Assembly: GCF_002222635.1 (NCBI RefSeq)
Contig: NZ_CP022415.1
Span: forward strand, 1,364,001 to 1,428,000
From: Pseudosulfitobacter pseudonitzschiae
GTDB lineage: Bacteria; Pseudomonadota; Alphaproteobacteria; Rhodobacterales; Rhodobacteraceae
Length of the DNA: 64,000 bases
Direction of reading: 5' to 3'
Made by a program: the position numbers and the translations under genes. A model generated the notes under the pieces. The model saw only the letters and a list, made by a program, of their open reading frames with translations. It was not told where the DNA came from and searched no databases. Below are positions 5,157-60,929 of the stretch, piece after piece. The first letter of the stretch is position 1. Every line of letters begins with the position of its first letter.

Positions 5157-6110
5157 TCAAGGAATTTGCAGCAATTCCAGCGTGTAAAGCGTGGTCTGGC
5201 GGTAATTGTCACCGGATCGCAACGCAATTGACGGAAACCCGTCGTGGTGCGGAGCGTCGGGCCAGCCCTGTGGTTCAAGCGCGATTCCCGCGTATGGGCC
5301 AGTACGCGCGCCCGTGTTGGCGCTGTTCTGGGTGTCGCGCAGGCCCGCACCATCATAGACCTGCAAGCCCGGTTCGGTGGTGGCAATGCTTAGCTGCATG
5401 GAATTCGGGCCGGTCAAACGTGCGGCAGGGCGCAGGGCGTCGCTGCGGGCAGGGGCCAGACACAGGTTGTGATCAAGCGCTGCGGCGTCAATCAGGGGTG
5501 TGGACGTGCGTGCCACAAGGCCAAGGTCTGCCACACTGGCCTGCGCACCTGTCGGCAACTTGTCGGGCCCGACGGGCAGGTAACTGTCGGCATGAACCAG
5601 CAGATGATGGCCGCGCACGTCGCCTTGGCCTGCAAGGTTCCAATAGGGGTGGTGCGCGATATTCACCAGCGTCGTGCGGTCGGTGGTGGCACAAATGTCC
5701 AGCCGCAGCGCAGCGTGCTCCAGCGCATAGCGCGCGGTAATCACGCGCCGTCCGGGCAGGCCGCAATCGCCATGCAACAGGGTCAGGGCAAAGGTTACGC
5801 TGTCTTTGCTGTGTTCGGTCACCTTCCAGATGCGGGTATGGATGCCCTGATCGCCACTGTGCAGGCAATTGACGCCCTCGTTCGGCTGTATCTGCCAGCG
5901 GGTGCCGTCAATTGTCACCGCAGCCCCGCCAATCCGGTTGGCCACGGGCCCGACCAGCGCCCCCATATAGCCGCCTTTCGCACCATCCACCCAGCCCAGC
6001 ACAAGGCTGCGGGGAACGGCACTGTGCCACAATGCGTTCAAGGCAGCCCCCTGAGGCAAAAGTCGCGCGCGCAAGGTGCCGTTTGAAATCTCGAGGTAAT
6101 CTGCTGTCAT
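5157..6110 (-). CDS. Aldose 1-epimerase (galactose mutarotase family)
   Basis: About 317 residues. It would interconvert alpha and beta anomers of an aldose. Family signs are PVANRIGGAAVTIDG near residue 60, the catalytic histidine segment NIAHHPYWNLAG, and the C-terminal glutamate in ALEPQGWPDAPHH, which carries the catalytic base in this fold. Start chosen at the second ATG (MTADYLEIS). The sugar cannot be told. It stands alone, divergent from the aminotransferase gene. Confidence 0.9.
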   Translation of the reverse strand: MTADYLEISNGTLRARLLPQGAALNALWHSAVPRSLVLGWVDGAKGGYMGALVGPVANRIGGAAVTIDGTRWQIQPNEGVNCLHSGDQGIHTRIWKVTEHSKDSVTFALTLLHGDCGLPGRRVITARYALEHAALRLDICATTDRTTLVNIAHHPYWNLAGQGDVRGHHLLVHADSYLPVGPDKLPTGAQASVADLGLVARTSTPLIDAAALDHNLCLAPARSDALRPAARLTGPNSMQLSIATTEPGLQVYDGAGLRDTQNSANTGARTGPYAGIALEPQGWPDAPHHDGFPSIALRSGDNYRQTTLYTLELLQIP

Positions 6111-31239: not shown

Positions 31240-31251
31240 ATGGTATACCAT
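31240..31251. promoter_or_regulatory. GntR-type operator ATGGTATACCAT
   Basis: A perfect 12-bp palindrome with the core TGGTATACCA in the gap between lysE/denD (minus) and the SDR operon (plus). The same core occurs at 35344 and 59957. Confidence 0.75.
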
Positions 31252-35342: not shown

Positions 35343-35354
35343 ATGGTATACCAA
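35343..35354. promoter_or_regulatory. GntR-type operator with TGGTATACCA core
   Basis: Palindrome TGGTATACCA (35344-35353) in the 91-base divergent gap between the LprI/RraA unit and the SDR-ltnD-otn operon. Confidence 0.75.
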
Positions 35355-54002: not shown

Positions 54003-55022
54003 TTAGGCCTCGTAGGTGTCGACGTAGGATGTGTCGACAAAGGTGTCGAGCGTGATCGCGGCATCGACCAGACCTTCGGACTGGAACCATTCCAACTGGT
54101 CCGTCAGCGAGGCCACGTTCATCTTGGCCCCTTCGTTCAGACGCATTGTGCCGTTGATGATCGACGGTGCCGCCTTTTCGCGGGGCTGGTCGGTGTAGAC
54201 GTATTTATGGATCAGATCGACCATCTGGTTCACCCCGTCCTCACCGCCGTCCTTGGCGATCATCGCGGCGTTGTAGTCGGCCACGCCCTTGGAAAATCCG
54301 GTCAGGAACGCTTGGGTCTGGTCGCGCTGGTTGTCGGCGTTGTCGGTCGAGGTGAAGACCGTGGTGACCTGATAATTCGGCAGATAGTCCGAGATATTGC
54401 CAATGATGTGAACCGCGCCCGAACCTGCCAGAGGCTTGGCGATATGGGGCACGATGGACCATGCGTCGATCTGGCCGGATTTCAGCGCGCCAATGATCGC
54501 GCCGACCTTTTGCAGCGGCGTGAACGACATCTCGATGCCCTCGGCGGCGGCAACTTTCGAGCCCATATAGTGGAACGACGAACCGGCGGTGGAAATGCCG
54601 AACTTCTTGCCCGCGAGACCCGCAGGTGAGGTCAGACCCGCCTGAAACGCCGCGTCCGAGGCCAGAATTTTCTGCCCGTCAATGCCCGGTTCTTCGGTCA
54701 GACCGCCGCCGATCACCTTGACCGCGCCCTTGTCGGCAAGCGAGATCAGACCGCCCGACACGGCTGTCACGGCATAATCGACATCGCCCGAGGCAATGGC
54801 CACGGCCATCGGCTGAGCGGCCTGAAAGAAGCGCAGTTCCACATCAAGGCCCGCCTCCTGGAAATAGCCACGCTCGACCGCGATAAAGCTGGCGGCATGC
54901 GAGGTGAAGCGCAGCGCGCCCACGACGATTTTTTTGTTCTGCGCAAGGGCAGGTGCGGCAAGGCCGGTGGCGGCGGCTGCCCCGATCAGACCTATTGTCT
55001 GGCGGCGGTTGAAGTTGATCAT
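54003..55022 (-). CDS. ABC transporter substrate-binding protein, TauA/SsuA/NMT1 type
   Basis: 339 residues from ATG 55022. A signal peptide (MINFNRRQTIGLIGAAAATGLAAPALAQ) carrying a twin-arginine-like RR, then KKIVVGALRFTSHAASFIAVERGYFQEAGLDVELR and a two-lobe binding fold. Members bind taurine, other sulfonates, nitrate or thiamine precursors. Ligand not evident. Confidence 0.88.
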   Translation of the reverse strand: MINFNRRQTIGLIGAAAATGLAAPALAQNKKIVVGALRFTSHAASFIAVERGYFQEAGLDVELRFFQAAQPMAVAIASGDVDYAVTAVSGGLISLADKGAVKVIGGGLTEEPGIDGQKILASDAAFQAGLTSPAGLAGKKFGISTAGSSFHYMGSKVAAAEGIEMSFTPLQKVGAIIGALKSGQIDAWSIVPHIAKPLAGSGAVHIIGNISDYLPNYQVTTVFTSTDNADNQRDQTQAFLTGFSKGVADYNAAMIAKDGGEDGVNQMVDLIHKYVYTDQPREKAAPSIINGTMRLNEGAKMNVASLTDQLEWFQSEGLVDAAITLDTFVDTSYVDTYEA

Positions 55023-55209
55023 CGTATCCTCCCTGAAGTGTATGATCGGTTTGCTTGGTGTTTCAGTGATCCAAGAAGCCGGAGTTTTCAAGGGTTCAGG
55101 GTGGAAAAGCCTCTGTGACGGGGTGTTAAAGGCCGCTGGCGCGTGGGGGCCGTGTCGGGGTAGCAGGGGCAAAGGCACCCGATGGCAGGCAGACAGCAAT
55201 GACCCGATC

Positions 55210-55638
55210 ATGACCGCGTATCTTGTTCTTTTCGCATCCGCACTGGTGGCTGCGACCATTCTGCCGATGCAATCCGAAGCGGTTTTGGTGGGGCTGTTGG
55301 TTGCGGGCAACCATCCCGTCGCGGCGCTGCTTCTGATGGCGACGGTCGGCAATGTGGCGGGCTCTGTCATTAACTGGGTTCTGGGCCGCTATCTGCTGCG
55401 GTTCAAAGACAGGCGGTGGTTTCCCACATCCGACAGACAGCTTGCGCGCGCCCAAGGCTGGTATCACCGCTATGGCCGCTGGTCGCTGCTGGGAAGTTGG
55501 CTGCCGGTGGTGGGCGATCCGCTGACGGTGGTTGCGGGGGTGATGCGCGAACCGTTCGGGTCGTTTCTGGCGCTGGTTACCCTTGCCAAGGGTGTCCGGT
55601 ATCTGGTGCTGGCGGCGCTAACGCTGGCGTGGCTTTGA
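55210..55638 (+). CDS. YqaA/DedA-type small membrane protein
   Basis: 142 residues from ATG 55210 (MTAYLVLFASALVAAT). Hydrophobic helices with the VGNVAGSVINWVLGRYL segment and WYHRYGRWSLLGSWLPVVGDPLTVVAG, the pattern of YqaA/SNARE-associated (DedA-like) proteins. Function is thought to be lipid or ion related. It stands alone; a longer frame upstream is not needed. Confidence 0.82.
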   Translation: MTAYLVLFASALVAATILPMQSEAVLVGLLVAGNHPVAALLLMATVGNVAGSVINWVLGRYLLRFKDRRWFPTSDRQLARAQGWYHRYGRWSLLGSWLPVVGDPLTVVAGVMREPFGSFLALVTLAKGVRYLVLAALTLAWL

Positions 55639-55693
55639 CGGCTACAGACATCCCGCAGGCAGGGCAGGCTTGACTCCAACTTGTTAATATATC

Positions 55694-55711
55694 ATCTCAT
55701 CATACCAGTTG
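55694..55711 (+). promoter_or_regulatory. 18-bp operator copy upstream of apnO
   Basis: ATCTCATCATACCAGTTG, the exact reverse complement of the site at 57311. It lies 27 bases before the apnO ATG. Confidence 0.75.
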
Positions 55712-55737
55712 GGATTTTGCACAAGAGGATCGAACAC

Positions 55738-56568
55738 ATGGCACAAAAAATCGCGTTGATGGGCGCAGGCGGCAAGATGGGCGTGCGCAGTGCGACGAAC
55801 CTTTTACAAACAGATTTTGACGTGGCCCACGTCGAGATTTCCGAAAGTGGTCGCGCGCGGCTGAAAGAGGCCATCGGCGTCGATTGTGTCCCTGTCGAAG
55901 AGGCGCTGAAGGGGGCCGATGTGGTGCTGCTGGCGGTGCCCGATACGGCGATCCGCGCGGTGGCCGCGTCGATCATCGACATGGTGCCCGCAGGTGCGAT
56001 CGTGATCTGTCTGGACGCGGCGGGGCCATTTGCGGGGCATCTGCCCAAGCGTGATGATGTCACTTACTTTGTCACGCACCCGTGCCATCCACCGATCTAC
56101 AATGACGAACAGACCGACGCCGGCCGCAAGGATTACTTTGGCGGCATTGCCGCGCAACAGGGCATTGTGAATGCGCTGATGCAGGGGCCGGAAGAGCACT
56201 ATGCGCTGGGTGAAAAAGTCGGGCGCGCGATCTATGCGCCGGTGGCCCGCAGTCACCGCGTCACCGTGGACCAGTTGGCGCTGCTTGAACCGGGATTGTC
56301 GGAAACCGTTTGCGCGTCGCTGCTGGACGTGATGCGCGAAGCGATGGACGAGGTCGTGCGGCGCGGCGTGCCAAAAGAGGCCGCGCGCGATTTTCTGTTG
56401 GGTCACATGAACATTCTGGGGGCCGTGATCTTTGACGAGGTCGACGGCGTGTTTTCGGATGCCTGCAACAAGGCGATCACATTCGGCAAGCCGATGCTGA
56501 TGCGTGACGACTGGAAGCGGGTGTTCGAACCGGACGAGATTGCCGCCAGCATCCAGCGCATCACCTGA
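55738..56568 (+). CDS. apnO: D-apionate oxidoisomerase-like protein
   Basis: 276 residues from ATG 55738. A Rossmann domain (ALMGAGGKMGVRSATNLL), then a phosphogluconate-dehydrogenase-like C-terminal domain (GHMNILGAVIFDEVDGVFSDACNKA). This architecture and the neighbours (a second DUF1537 kinase and a RuBisCO-like protein) match ApnO, which turns D-apionate into 3-oxo-isoapionate by oxidation with hydroxymethyl migration. A good ribosome binding site (AAGAGGA) precedes the ATG. Start of its own unit; the next gene is convergent. Confidence 0.85.
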   Translation: MAQKIALMGAGGKMGVRSATNLLQTDFDVAHVEISESGRARLKEAIGVDCVPVEEALKGADVVLLAVPDTAIRAVAASIIDMVPAGAIVICLDAAGPFAGHLPKRDDVTYFVTHPCHPPIYNDEQTDAGRKDYFGGIAAQQGIVNALMQGPEEHYALGEKVGRAIYAPVARSHRVTVDQLALLEPGLSETVCASLLDVMREAMDEVVRRGVPKEAARDFLLGHMNILGAVIFDEVDGVFSDACNKAITFGKPMLMRDDWKRVFEPDEIAASIQRIT

Positions 56569-56571
56569 ATG

Positions 56572-57285
56572 TCAGTCGCGCTGTTTCAATCCGGCAGAGC
56601 GGTCAAGGTGTGTGGCCATATGGGCCACCGCCGCCTGCGCGTCCTGCGCGTCGATGGCGGCGACAATCTGGCGGTGTTCGGACAGCGTGGTGTCCTCATG
56701 CCCCGACCAGTGCAACAAGGCACCGTGGTTGTGGAAAATCCATTTCAGCATCGCGTCGGCCAGCGCCGTGATGACCGGATTGCCCGCAATTGCGATGATG
56801 CGCGCGTGAAAGGCGATGTCGGCGGCGACAAAGTCGTCCGGTTGGTCACGGGCGGCGGCCTGCATGGCGATCAGATGGTGCAGGGCGGTCAGGTCTTCGC
56901 TGCTGCGTTGCAGGGCTGCGACGCGGACAAGCCCCAGTTCGAACATGCGCCGCGCGTCTTTGAGGTGGCCCAGGTTTTCCGGCGCGACCGACAGCAGCGT
57001 TTGCGCCATACCGTCCAGTTGCGCCAGCGCGCTTTGCGGGGTGATCGCGTTGACGCGGCTGCGTTCGCCGTGGCTGACCGTGATCAGCCCCATCGTGTTG
57101 AGCGTTTGCAAGGCCTCGCGCACAACTGGGCGGCCGACGCCGAAACGGTCCATCAGCGCACGTTCCGACGGCATCGGATCGCCCGGTGCCACGGCCCCTT
57201 CGACGATCATCGTGTGCAGACGGTCGAACACTTCATCCGAGAGTTTACGGCGCGGGATCGGGTCTGTGGGTGTAGGTGTGGACAT
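56572..57285 (-). CDS. GntR family regulator, FCD (NanR-like) subgroup
   Basis: 237 residues from ATG 57285. Winged-helix domain at about 15-80 (RRKLSDEVFDRLHTMIVEGAV, PSERALMDRFGVGRPVVREALQTL), and an FCD effector domain at about 95-225, with the metal histidines in RMFELGL, DIAFHARIIAIAGN and HRQIVAAI. NanR-type regulators bind GGTATA-like repeats. All five TGGTAT-containing sites in the window are candidate targets. It is the only GntR gene seen here. Confidence 0.9.
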   Translation of the reverse strand: MSTPTPTDPIPRRKLSDEVFDRLHTMIVEGAVAPGDPMPSERALMDRFGVGRPVVREALQTLNTMGLITVSHGERSRVNAITPQSALAQLDGMAQTLLSVAPENLGHLKDARRMFELGLVRVAALQRSSEDLTALHHLIAMQAAARDQPDDFVAADIAFHARIIAIAGNPVITALADAMLKWIFHNHGALLHWSGHEDTTLSEHRQIVAAIDAQDAQAAVAHMATHLDRSAGLKQRD

Positions 57286-57310
57286 GGCGGCCTTGGTGTT
57301 CTGGGTGCTG

Positions 57311-57328
57311 CAACTGGTATGATGAGAT
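57311..57328 (-). promoter_or_regulatory. 18-bp operator copy between gntR and oiaK
   Basis: CAACTGGTATGATGAGAT lies 26 bases from the gntR start and six bases before the oiaK start, so it could control both genes and would cover the oiaK ribosome binding region. Confidence 0.75.
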
Positions 57329-57333
57329 AAGCG

Positions 57334-58674
57334 ATGAATGGTCAAGTCCTGGATGGTCCGGTATTGGCGTGGCTGGGGGATGATTTCACCGGTGCCGCGG
57401 CAGTGATGGAGGTTCTGGCTTTTGCGGGGCTGCCGGTGACGCTGTTCCTGACGCCCCCTGATGCGGCGCGTCTGGCGCAGTTTCCGAACCTGAAGGGCAT
57501 CGGGATCGCCAGCATGGCGCGGACGCAATCGCCTGACTGGATGGAGGCGCATTTGCCCGCCTTGTATGACGCTCTGGATGCAACGGGGGCGGCGCTGGTA
57601 CAGTACAAGGTGTGTTCGACGCTGGATTCCGCCCCGCATGTGGGCAGCATCGGGCGGGCAATGAAGATCGGGCAGGCACAGTTTGGCGGAGCGGTTCCGG
57701 TGGTGGTCGCGGCACCGCAGATGCGGCGGTATCAGGCCTTTGGCCAGTTGTTTGCGGGGACAGAGGCGGGGGTATTCCGGCTGGACCGTCATCCGGTGAT
57801 GTCGCGCCATCCGGTCACCCCGATGCACGAGGCCGACGTGGCGCGGCATCTGGCGGCGCAGACGGATATGCCGCTGGGCTGTCTGGACCTTGAGGTGCTG
57901 TATGATGCGGCGCGGGCCGATGCGGCCTTGGTCGCGGGGCAAGGTGTGACGGTGGATATGATCGGCCCGGCGGATGAGATCGCCGTGGGGCGGTTGTTGT
58001 GGGAAAACCGCAGCGCGCACCGGTTTGTCGTGGGATCGCAGGGCACGGCCTATGCGCTGGTTGCGTATTTTCGGGCTCAGGGGTGGTTGCCTGCGGCCAC
58101 GCCGGTTGCGGGGCTGGGGCGGGTTGCGCGGATGGCTGTAGTTTCGGGTTCGGTGTCGCCCACGACGGCGGACCAGATTGCATGGGCTTGCGACAACGGC
58201 TTTGCGGGAATTGCGTTTGATGTGCTGGCGGCCTGTGGCGGCGGGTTGGACCGCGCCGAACAGGAAGCCGTGGATGCGGGTCTGGCCGCTTTGGATGCTG
58301 GACAAGTGCCGTTGATCTATACGGCCAAGGGGCCGGATGATCCGGCTGTTGCGGCCCTGCGCATGGCGGCGGGGCCGGATTTGCCTGCGGTCAACGACCG
58401 TATTGGCGCAGCACTGGGACGGGTTCTGCGCGCGCTGATCGAACGCGGTGGGCTGGGCCGAGCAGTGGTGTCGGGGGGTGACACCTCGGGGCATGTGTGC
58501 ACCGCTTTAGGCATCGACGCGCTGACGGCGGTGGCACCGACGATTGCGGGGGCCGCGATTTGTCGGGCCCATGCGACGGGTGCGATGGACGGGCTGCATC
58601 TGGCGCTGAAGGGCGGGCAGATGGGCAGCCGCGATTATTTTGGATGGGTTCGGGACGGAGGCGGCGCGCGATGA
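57334..58674 (+). CDS. oiaK: 3-oxo-isoapionate kinase-like (DUF1537)
   Basis: 446 residues. N-terminal LAWLGDDFTGAAAVMEVLAFAG with the DDFTGAA family motif, and a C-terminal ATP-binding region (VVSGGDTSGHVCTALGI). In the apionate pathway this kinase phosphorylates 3-oxo-isoapionate at O4. Only weakly similar to the otnK gene in the same window, so the two are specialised paralogues. It is divergent from gntR and overlaps the next gene by four bases. Confidence 0.83.
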   Translation: MNGQVLDGPVLAWLGDDFTGAAAVMEVLAFAGLPVTLFLTPPDAARLAQFPNLKGIGIASMARTQSPDWMEAHLPALYDALDATGAALVQYKVCSTLDSAPHVGSIGRAMKIGQAQFGGAVPVVVAAPQMRRYQAFGQLFAGTEAGVFRLDRHPVMSRHPVTPMHEADVARHLAAQTDMPLGCLDLEVLYDAARADAALVAGQGVTVDMIGPADEIAVGRLLWENRSAHRFVVGSQGTAYALVAYFRAQGWLPAATPVAGLGRVARMAVVSGSVSPTTADQIAWACDNGFAGIAFDVLAACGGGLDRAEQEAVDAGLAALDAGQVPLIYTAKGPDDPAVAALRMAAGPDLPAVNDRIGAALGRVLRALIERGGLGRAVVSGGDTSGHVCTALGIDALTAVAPTIAGAAICRAHATGAMDGLHLALKGGQMGSRDYFGWVRDGGGAR

Positions 58675-59930
58675 CACGGTTGCAAGCGACATATGAAATT
58701 GAAAGCCCCGTGGGCGTGGCCCGTGCTGCGGGCGTGATAGCGGGCGAACAGTCGACTGGAACCTTTATCCGGCTGGCGTCCGAAACCGATGATTTGCGCA
58801 CACGCTCTGCCGCGCGGGTCGAAGCGGTCGAGGTCACCGGCGCTGCCGACCATCCGGCGTTGCCCTGTCGGCTTGCGGCGGACCGCTATGAACAGGGGCG
58901 TATCACGCTCAGCTGGCCGGTCGAGACCTTCGGCCCGTCGCTGCCTAATATTCTGGCCACGGTGGCGGGAAACCTGTTCGAACTGGCCGAGGTTTCAGCG
59001 ATCCGGCTGCTGTCGCTGGACATTCCCGACAGCATTGCCGCCGCCTGTCCGGGCCCGCAGTTCGGCGTTGCGGGCACGCGGGCGCTGATGGGGGTGGCAT
59101 CGGGGCCGATGATCGGCACCATCGTCAAGCCGAGCGTGGGGTTGAGCGCGCAAGAAACCGCCACGCTGGCCGGTGATCTGGCGCGGGCGGGGATTGATTT
59201 CATCAAGGATGACGAATTGCAGGGCAATGGCCCCGCCTGTCCGCTGTCGGATCGCGCACGGCTGGTGATGCAGGTGCTGGACGATGCCGCACAGGTGACG
59301 GGGCGCAAGGCGATGTATGCGTTCAACATCACCGACGAGATCACCGATATGTGGCGGCATCTGGAGATGCTGGAGCGGTTGGGCGCGAGTTGTGCGATGG
59401 TGTCGCTGAATTCGATCGGGCTGGCCGGATTGCGGGCGGTGCGGGATCGTTCGCCGCTGCCGATCCACGCGCATCGCAACGGGTGGGGGTTGATGTCCCG
59501 CTCGCCGCATATTGGCATCGCGTTTCCTGCGATGCAAAAACTGTGGCGGCTGGCGGGGGCGGATCATTTGCATGTGAACGGATTGGCCAGCAAGTTTACC
59601 GAACCCGACGCCGTGGTGATCGAGGCAGCGCGCAGCGTTCAGGCTCCGGTATCGGTGGACCATGCGCATGGCGCCTTGCCGGTGTTTTCATCGGGGCAGA
59701 CGCCGTGGCAGGTGGCGCCAAGTGCGCAGGCTTTGGGCAATGATGATTTCCTGATGTGCGCGGGCGGCGGTATCATGAGCCATCCCGATGGCCCTGCGGC
59801 GGGAATTGCCGCGTTTCGACAGGCTGCGGCAGCACAGGCGCAGGGGGTCAATGTGCGGACCTATGCGGCGGATCATCCCGAACTGGCCGCGGCGCTGGAT
59901 ACCTTTGAGGGTGCCGTGACACGCGGTTGA
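58671..59930 (+). CDS. RuBisCO-like protein of the apionate pathway (OiaX or OiaT)
   Basis: 419 residues with a RuBisCO large-chain barrel. Visible RuBisCO landmarks: K153 in IVKPSVGLS (place of Rubisco K175), the metal-carbamate motif IKDDE at 178-182 with K179, D181 and E182, HAH at 266-268 (H294 region), HVNGLASKF at 301-309 with a lysine at the loop-6 place, and GGGI near 365. Two RLPs act in apionate catabolism: a decarboxylase (OiaX, gives L-erythrulose 1-phosphate) and a transcarboxylase/hydrolase (OiaT, gives 3-phosphoglycerate and glycolate). Sequence by eye does not decide between them. Confidence 0.85.
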   Translation: MTRLQATYEIESPVGVARAAGVIAGEQSTGTFIRLASETDDLRTRSAARVEAVEVTGAADHPALPCRLAADRYEQGRITLSWPVETFGPSLPNILATVAGNLFELAEVSAIRLLSLDIPDSIAAACPGPQFGVAGTRALMGVASGPMIGTIVKPSVGLSAQETATLAGDLARAGIDFIKDDELQGNGPACPLSDRARLVMQVLDDAAQVTGRKAMYAFNITDEITDMWRHLEMLERLGASCAMVSLNSIGLAGLRAVRDRSPLPIHAHRNGWGLMSRSPHIGIAFPAMQKLWRLAGADHLHVNGLASKFTEPDAVVIEAARSVQAPVSVDHAHGALPVFSSGQTPWQVAPSAQALGNDDFLMCAGGGIMSHPDGPAAGIAAFRQAAAAQAQGVNVRTYAADHPELAAALDTFEGAVTRG

Positions 59931-59955
59931 CATGGGCGGGAATTGTCGCGACACG

Positions 59956-59967
59956 TTGGTATACCAA
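59956..59967 (+). promoter_or_regulatory. GntR-type operator TTGGTATACCAA
   Basis: A perfect 12-bp palindrome with the TGGTATACCA core, 23 bases before the 2-hydroxyacid dehydrogenase ATG and 26 bases after the RLP stop. Confidence 0.75.
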
Positions 59968-59990
59968 ATTACACCTCAGGAGTTGCCACC

Positions 59991-60929
59991 ATGTCTGCCA
60001 TCCTTGCCGTCGGGCCCTATACCGAAGCCGAGCGCGAAGCGTTCAAAGCGGAACTGCAACCGACATTTATCGGCACCCGCGCCGAACTGGACGCGCTGGA
60101 CGATACCGCCTGTGCTGCGGTCAGGGCGATTGCCTATAAGGGGCACCGGCCCTTTGGTGCCGAGGAAATGGACCGGTTCGCGAACCTTGGCGTGGTTGCG
60201 AATTTTGGTGTGGGATACGACGCGATCGACGTCGGTGCCGCGTCCGAGCGCGGGATCAAGGTGACCAACACGCCCGACGTGCTGAACGACGATGTGGCCG
60301 ATCTGGCGATTGCCATGTGGCTGATGCAGGCCCGCGAAATGCGACAGGCCGAGGCATGGGTGCGCGACGGATCGTGGGCCGAAAAGGGATCGGCGCCCCT
60401 GAACCGCAAGGTCAGCGGCGGCACTGTGGGCATCATGGGCATGGGCCGTATCGGCCGCGACATCGCTGACCGTCTGGCGGCGTTCAAGACCGAAGTCCAC
60501 TATCACGCGCGGTCGGAAAAAGACACGCCGGGCTGGACCTATCATGCCGATCCGGTGGCACTGGCGCAGGCCGTGGATTATCTGTTCATTGCCTTGGTCG
60601 GCGGCCCCGAGACCGAGAAATATGTGTCGAAAGAGGTGATCGCGGCGCTGGGTGAACGCGGTGTTATCATCAACATTTCACGCGGCACCACCATCGACGA
60701 AGAGGCGATGCTGGACGCGCTGGAAAGCGGTGCAATCGCCGGTGCCGGTCTGGATGTGTTCGTGGGAGAGCCGAAGGTGAACCCGCGTTTTCTGAAGCTG
60801 GACAACGTGGTGCTGCAACCGCATCAGGGGTCGGCCACGCATGAAACCCGCGCGGCAATGGCCAAGCTGCAGCGCGACAATGTGGCGGCGCATCTGGCGG
60901 GGAATGACCTGCTGACGCCGGTGAATTGA
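59991..60929 (+). CDS. D-isomer 2-hydroxyacid dehydrogenase (glyoxylate/hydroxypyruvate reductase-like)
   Basis: 312 residues. NAD(P) motif GIMGMGRIGRDIA at about 160-172, the catalytic Arg in NISRGTTIDEEAM, Glu in VFVGEPKVNP and His in LQPHQGSATHE. It would reduce glyoxylate or hydroxypyruvate. Downstream of the RLP and with its own TGGTATACCA operator; it could recycle the C2 unit (glyoxylate/glycolate) if the RLP is OiaT. GGAG lies before the ATG. Confidence 0.87.
   Translation: MSAILAVGPYTEAEREAFKAELQPTFIGTRAELDALDDTACAAVRAIAYKGHRPFGAEEMDRFANLGVVANFGVGYDAIDVGAASERGIKVTNTPDVLNDDVADLAIAMWLMQAREMRQAEAWVRDGSWAEKGSAPLNRKVSGGTVGIMGMGRIGRDIADRLAAFKTEVHYHARSEKDTPGWTYHADPVALAQAVDYLFIALVGGPETEKYVSKEVIAALGERGVIINISRGTTIDEEAMLDALESGAIAGAGLDVFVGEPKVNPRFLKLDNVVLQPHQGSATHETRAAMAKLQRDNVAAHLAGNDLLTPVN

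Follow-up and report, generated by a model that had tools for sequence, protein, structure and literature searches.

The effector domain of Escherichia coli FadR is acyl-CoA-responsive, and FadR operators there are built on a TGGT half-site with a 3-base spacer; NanR of the same species responds to N-acetylneuraminate. For the FadR subfamily as a whole the operator consensus is TKGT/ACMA, with the boxes usually 3 nt apart and GT and AC 2-3 nt apart. The GntR family also has additional outer boxes at 7-12 nt from the centre, and in GntR divergons the two divergent operons usually share one site (PMC4494728). E. coli NanR is described in PMC8012715 as an asymmetric DNA binder, with one domain placed on consensus DNA and the other on non-consensus DNA; it works with (GGTATA)3 direct repeats and, for co-operativity, a 32-residue N-terminal extension, and its residue Asn89 is proposed to contact bases.

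The window analysed here, a stretch of 64,000 nucleotides from Pseudosulfitobacter pseudonitzschiae, carries a GntR gene within a cluster for an oxidoreductase, a kinase and a RuBisCO-like protein (RLP), and a literature search, with most subscription papers outside it, gave no description of this apnO-gntR-oiaK-RLP regulon. The apiose-pathway gene names, in part those of an initial annotation of this DNA, are presumed ones. An 18-bp sequence, ATCTCATCATACCAGTTG, lies on the plus strand at 55694-55711 and on the minus strand at 57311-57328, and a sequence check found the reverse-complement pair exact in sequence, coordinates and strands, as the annotation had it. From the sequence, the two 18-mers are very probably operators of the GntR encoded between them, a dimer of which would repress apnO, gntR and oiaK-RLP. 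The features of the locus are as follows.

55670..55675, plus strand: TTGACT, candidate apnO -35 box, placed by eye
55694..55711, minus strand: left copy, predicted 18-bp operator core, motif strand CAACTGGTATGATGAGAT on minus; PWM 35.9 bits (scored 23-base motif at 55689-55711)
55738..56568, plus strand: apnO-like gene, PGDH_C domain oxidoreductase (Pfam PF16896, E 2e-72), proposed left-operator target
56572..57285, minus strand: gntR, GntR HTH + FCD, NanR-like regulator of 237 aa (NF003011, 274 bits, cut-off 260)
57311..57328, plus strand: right copy, predicted operator core, in the gntR-oiaK gap; PWM 29.6 bits
57315..57323, plus strand: TGGTATGAT, putative extended -10-like element inside the right operator, pointing at oiaK
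57334..58674, plus strand: oiaK-like kinase gene (NF042436, 434 bits, below the cut-off of 700), proposed right-operator target
58671..59930, plus strand: RuBisCO-like protein (RLP) gene, oiaX-like (NF042437, 390 bits, below the cut-off of 700)
59956..59967, no strand: palindrome TTGGTATACCAA before a downstream 2-hydroxyacid dehydrogenase gene, a related GntR-type site

The gntR product has the domains of the GntR superfamily and, being of the FCD type, of the FadR subfamily (PF00392, 1.4e-19; PF07729, 5.7e-21; both above the gathering scores), and by its NF003011 score it falls in the NCBIfam NanR subfamily. The other names given in the initial annotation fare less well: the kinase and RLP do match the OiaK and OiaX models, but at scores so far under the equivalog cut-offs that neither counts as a member, and no NCBIfam model reaches its cut-off with apnO. 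The cluster is thus apionate-like with the exact substrate not certain, and the inducers proposed for it are guesses. The RLP and kinase genes overlap by 4 bases and probably share one operon. A second RLP, 43% identical, is found in the same genome (G000) at G000:C3:205641-206897 (L095), beside another kinase of the same family.

With E. coli FadR the window site has in common the TGGT half-site, the 3-base spacer and the dyad centre, and it matches the fadD probe 2 at 15 of 18 bases (PMC4259882). Its left TGGT and the 3-nt spacing fit the subfamily boxes, whereas the right half, ATGA, is two bases off the ACMA of the consensus (PMC4494728), and the effector domain is of the FCD type in place of an acyl-CoA-responsive one, in a different pathway. 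By sequence the closest solved relative of the window GntR is E. coli NanR (6on4, E 7.6e-34), with which it shares a GRPxVRE recognition helix and a GER wing. The operators differ, however, in that NanR sites have two or three GGTATA direct repeats and the window sites one GGTAT each, and so do the N-termini, residue 8 of the window protein aligning with NanR residue 25, which makes its N-terminal extension some 17 residues shorter than the 32-residue one of NanR (both NanR features as given in PMC8012715).

The annotation had proposed that the 18-mer be sought in the genome, where many unrelated copies would have spoken against an operator; the 5,121,602 bases contain exactly two exact copies, one on each strand, the first ahead of apnO and the second between gntR and oiaK. 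Three further places match with 2-3 mismatches, all within open reading frames (by eye lysA-like, riboflavin-synthase-like and amidohydrolase-like), and a scan of the same genome with ACTGGTATRATRAS for more targets gave two extra exact matches, again both within open reading frames. Apart from this pair the 64 kb contain no non-overlapping 18-bp inverted repeat, and the third-best PWM site after the two copies has 16.3 bits. From the left site to the apnO ATG at 55738 there are 26 bases (27 had been counted before), while the right site ends 5 bases ahead of the oiaK start at 57334, directly before that gene as had been claimed, with 25 bases between it and the gntR start at 57285 on the minus strand.

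Within the genus the pair is constant. Five of six genomes have the RLP gene (E<=1e-60) and each of these holds exactly two exact 18-mers in opposite orientation, 1610-1617 bases apart, whereas the sixth has neither RLP nor 18-mer. Gene order and orientation, apnO> <gntR oiaK> RLP>, are identical in all five (the window; L010, Sulfitobacter sp. 20_GPM-1509m; L011, P. pseudonitzschiae; L012, P. koreensis; and L097), and the intergenic bases around the 18-mers vary while the 18-mers do not.

Beyond the genus the 18-mer proves to be the core of a motif, CAACTGGTATGATGA[GC][AT]TGATA, seen before apnO, oiaK, RLP or gntR. Among 80 RLP loci of alpha-, beta- and gammaproteobacteria, 62 score above 20 bits for it, a partly circular count since the same 80 loci supplied the training sites of the PWM (CTGGTAT[AG] close to gene starts); the RLP-kinase-oxidoreductase cluster itself ranges from Rhodobacterales to Halomonas and Azoarcus. 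In four of the 62 (L071, L083, L084, L086) every site is more than 170 bases away from the mapped apnO, gntR, oiaK and RLP starts, and the motif is absent from the gntR-oiaK gap of L018. Searched as CATCATACCAGTTGN{5,35}ATG in 248 family genomes the site was found only in the window's genome and at one place in G193, the pattern being too strict, and CAACTGGTATRATRASW in 385 class genomes matched only the two window copies, a result that shows specificity and not spread. Additional copies off the core promoters were seen by eye between a TRAP-type binding protein and another GntR gene (L035, L043) and before a sugar-binding protein (L083).

That the motif belongs to this kind of regulator is indicated by their joint occurrence. 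Where the locus has a gntR of at least 44% identity the motif is present in 45 of 45 loci, where the local gntR is below 44% it is present in 7 of 14 and absent in 7, and where there is no local gntR it is found in 10 of 21. Genome-wide checking of 18 of these 21 (L023, L057 and L065 being left out), in genomes of which several are metagenome bins and possibly incomplete, placed a regulator of 43-55% identity elsewhere in the genome for all nine motif-bearing loci. Seven of the nine motif-less loci have no regulator match at E<=1e-30 in their genomes, L027 with its weak site of 16.0 bits being counted here; L080 has matches at 35% identity only, and for L013 the genome's regulator, 50% identical, is, going by contig number and position, that of a second locus, L026, which carries the motif. 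Fisher's test gives p ~2e-9 for motif against regulator, a value that overstates independence because the sequences are related by descent, and which takes L080 (35% match) and L027 (site below 20 bits) as having neither.

An independent set came from the 248 family genomes by matching the GntR of L041 at E<=1e-55, which returned 14 with the window's own genome included; the other 13 were read over 6 kb to either side. A site above 14 bits was present in 11 of the 13 and one above 20 bits in 10, against none in 13 mononucleotide-shuffled stretches, and L154 and L164 had no site within the 6 kb. L160 and L165 overlap the training loci L030 and L029, leaving nine of 11 genomes outside the training set with a site. 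In L155, L156, L158 and L159 apnO, oiaK and gntR are present with an RLP that is distant (38-44%) or absent in the stretch read, which ties the site to the regulator and not to the RLP. The earlier assignment of the pair as operator of the local NanR-like GntR is thereby made the most likely one, on sequence grounds: the motif follows the regulator, and the NanR subfamily model is passed.

When a divergent site is counted for both of its genes, all 49 gene-site pairs at apnO have the motif in opposed orientation; it is aligned with oiaK in 19/19 and with RLP in 28/28 (47/47 together), and mixed towards gntR (11 aligned, 7 opposed). The annotation had each copy facing its own target gene; the asymmetric motif instead points away from apnO and towards oiaK, and it is only to the convergent apnO and gntR that the two window copies have the same relative orientation. 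At 48 of the 62 site-bearing loci the site stands between two divergent cluster genes (apnO/RLP 18, apnO/oiaK 14, gntR/apnO 10, gntR/oiaK 5, gntR/RLP 1), as in the GntR divergons of PMC4494728, whereas in the window a stretch of 1.6 kb that includes the regulator gene separates the sites. Of the 62 site-bearing loci in other genomes, 51 have a single copy. In the window's genus, in Actibacterium (L014) and in Marivita (L017), apnO and oiaK each have a copy of their own, oriented as in apnO/oiaK divergons, and so the inverted pair is best read as two descendants of one ancestral two-way operator, later split.

The architecture of the site is less evident from the pooled motif than from its variants. 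Column shuffles of the pooled motif gave no dyad beyond chance (0.518 of shuffles as good) and no direct repeat beyond chance (0.21), and the case for symmetry therefore rests on variant sites. Those of L041, L049 and L053 are near-perfect FadR-type dyads with the same centre as the motif and a complete TTGT-N3-ACAA: L041 reads AACTTGT-ATG-ACAAGTT, and L049 reads CTTATCAACTTGT-ATG-ACAAGATGATAAG, in which 12 of 13 pairs are complementary across 29 bases. The L039 site has CAACTG/CAGTTG arms about the same centre, and over 69 distinct sites mean complementarity about this centre is 0.475, compared with 0.266 in shuffled sites and 0.43 at the next centre. The structure fits a FadR-type operator with one weak half, and the TGATA flank may correspond to an outer box of the kind reported in the GntR family. 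An arrangement as NanR-type direct repeats (period 8) was considered and rejected, being no better than column shuffles and at odds with the dyads of the three variants. Wing residue His72 of the window GntR aligns with NanR Asn89; it is Gln in L041, L049 and L053, where TGGT has become TTGT, and Gln also in L163, where TGGT is kept, so that wing and operator change together in three of four, which is suggestive only.

How repression might work can be outlined from these arrangements. A dimer of the FadR-subfamily, NanR-like GntR would bind the 17-bp pseudo-palindrome AACTGGT-ATG-ATGAGAT, that is TGGT-N3-ATGA with one strong and one degenerate half-site. Its binding to the left copy would block apnO, the operator covering the -10/start region, and its binding to the right copy would block oiaK-RLP, TGGTATGAT being inside the operator, and also gntR itself; the operator positions at apnO and oiaK would suit steric repression. 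The right copy probably acts on both gntR and oiaK, and its place 25 bp before gntR suggests autoregulation. Release of GntR would follow when the FCD domain holds the inducer, probably a sugar acid of the pathway as the FCD domain and the neighbour genes suggest. TTGACT lies 18 bases before the left operator in all five genus loci read; a promoter scan of 55000-60100 gave no sigma-70 consensus pair, and all promoter positions are by eye. By eye, too, oiaK has no obvious Shine-Dalgarno in 57324-57333, between operator and ATG, and apnO has AGAGGA. The oiaK transcript may be near-leaderless.

The extended -10 element is TGnTATAAT, and the resemblance of TGGTAT[GA]AT to it, with the constant orientation towards oiaK and RLP, is what would favour the motif (TGGTATRAT) being a promoter element conserved as such and not an operator. 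This we regard as improbable, because the left copy faces away from apnO and towards a VTT-domain gene that is itself on the plus strand, so that a leftward promoter is not needed there and the copy is nonetheless invariant in five genomes, because variants such as CAACTTGTATGACAAGTT become more symmetric at the expense of the -10, and because conservation extends past nine bases. Operator and promoter roles could coexist at oiaK. We entertain as a possibility, though a doubtful one, that the right copy is operator and core promoter together, TGGTATGAT being the extended -10 of a near-leaderless oiaK transcript that starts 3-5 bases before the ATG, with the fixed orientation (49/49, 47/47) reflecting this double use and one ancestral two-way operator having been duplicated when apnO and gntR changed place; if true, the window would show a divergent regulon splitting yet keeping its repressor.

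FadR-family operators are alike, the E. coli FadR fadD probe with its 15 of 18 identical bases being a case in point, and the pair might then be the operator of another GntR/FadR-family regulator encoded elsewhere; the tracking of the motif with the local type of regulator, in locus or genome, and its place adjoining gntR in the window make this decidedly improbable. Exact inverted repeats bracketing a 1.6-kb convergent gene pair could also be the remnant of a recombination or mobile-element event flipping or moving the apnO-gntR segment, but the constancy of gene order in the five genus genomes, the prevalence elsewhere of single copies and of copies between divergent cluster genes, and the presence between the repeats of an oxidoreductase and a GntR gene, with no recombinase, leave very little room for it. 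Least of all is to be said for a chance repeat: some 18-bp inverted repeat did arise anywhere in the 64 kb in 20 of 200 dinucleotide-preserving shuffles, but in 0 of 200 was there one less than 1.7 kb apart, in keeping with the view of the annotation that chance was unlikely, and conservation of the pair in the genus and of the motif in RLP loci already refutes this explanation. The sequence comparisons thus give good support to a pair of operators for a NanR/FadR-like regulator, a system of an ordinary kind.

The RLP-kinase-oxidoreductase sugar-acid cluster so gains a candidate regulator with a precise predicted operator, by which the inducer, and via the inducer the true substrate, become searchable with a simple binding-release assay. 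The natural series of regulators and operators, with His or Gln in the wing and TGGT or TTGT in the half-site, would be useful for GntR specificity tests.

Related palindromes occur elsewhere. The perfect palindrome TGGTATACCA has five copies in the genome, in the window at 59957-59966, 31241-31250 and 35344-35353 and outside it at G000:C1:585186 and 604981, each shortly before an apparent gene start by eye, their neighbours being a 2-hydroxyacid dehydrogenase, two short-chain-dehydrogenase-like genes, a dehydratase-like gene and a TRAP-type binding protein beside a GntR-like gene; this looks like a second GntR-type regulon. The copy before the downstream 2-hydroxyacid dehydrogenase recurs at the same place in L010, L011, L012 and L014. 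At L057 (Oceanospirillaceae, no gntR in the stretch read) two TGGTATACCA 23 bases apart, at about 5455-5490, stand before the RLP in place of the motif. In Stappia loci TAACTGGTATGATGATCAC, a site related to but different from the motif, lies between a TRAP-type binding protein and another GntR gene (L036 at 1571, L038 at 1576, L044 at 1556), the flanks being read by eye for L036 and, for L044, in frame on the binding-protein side only.
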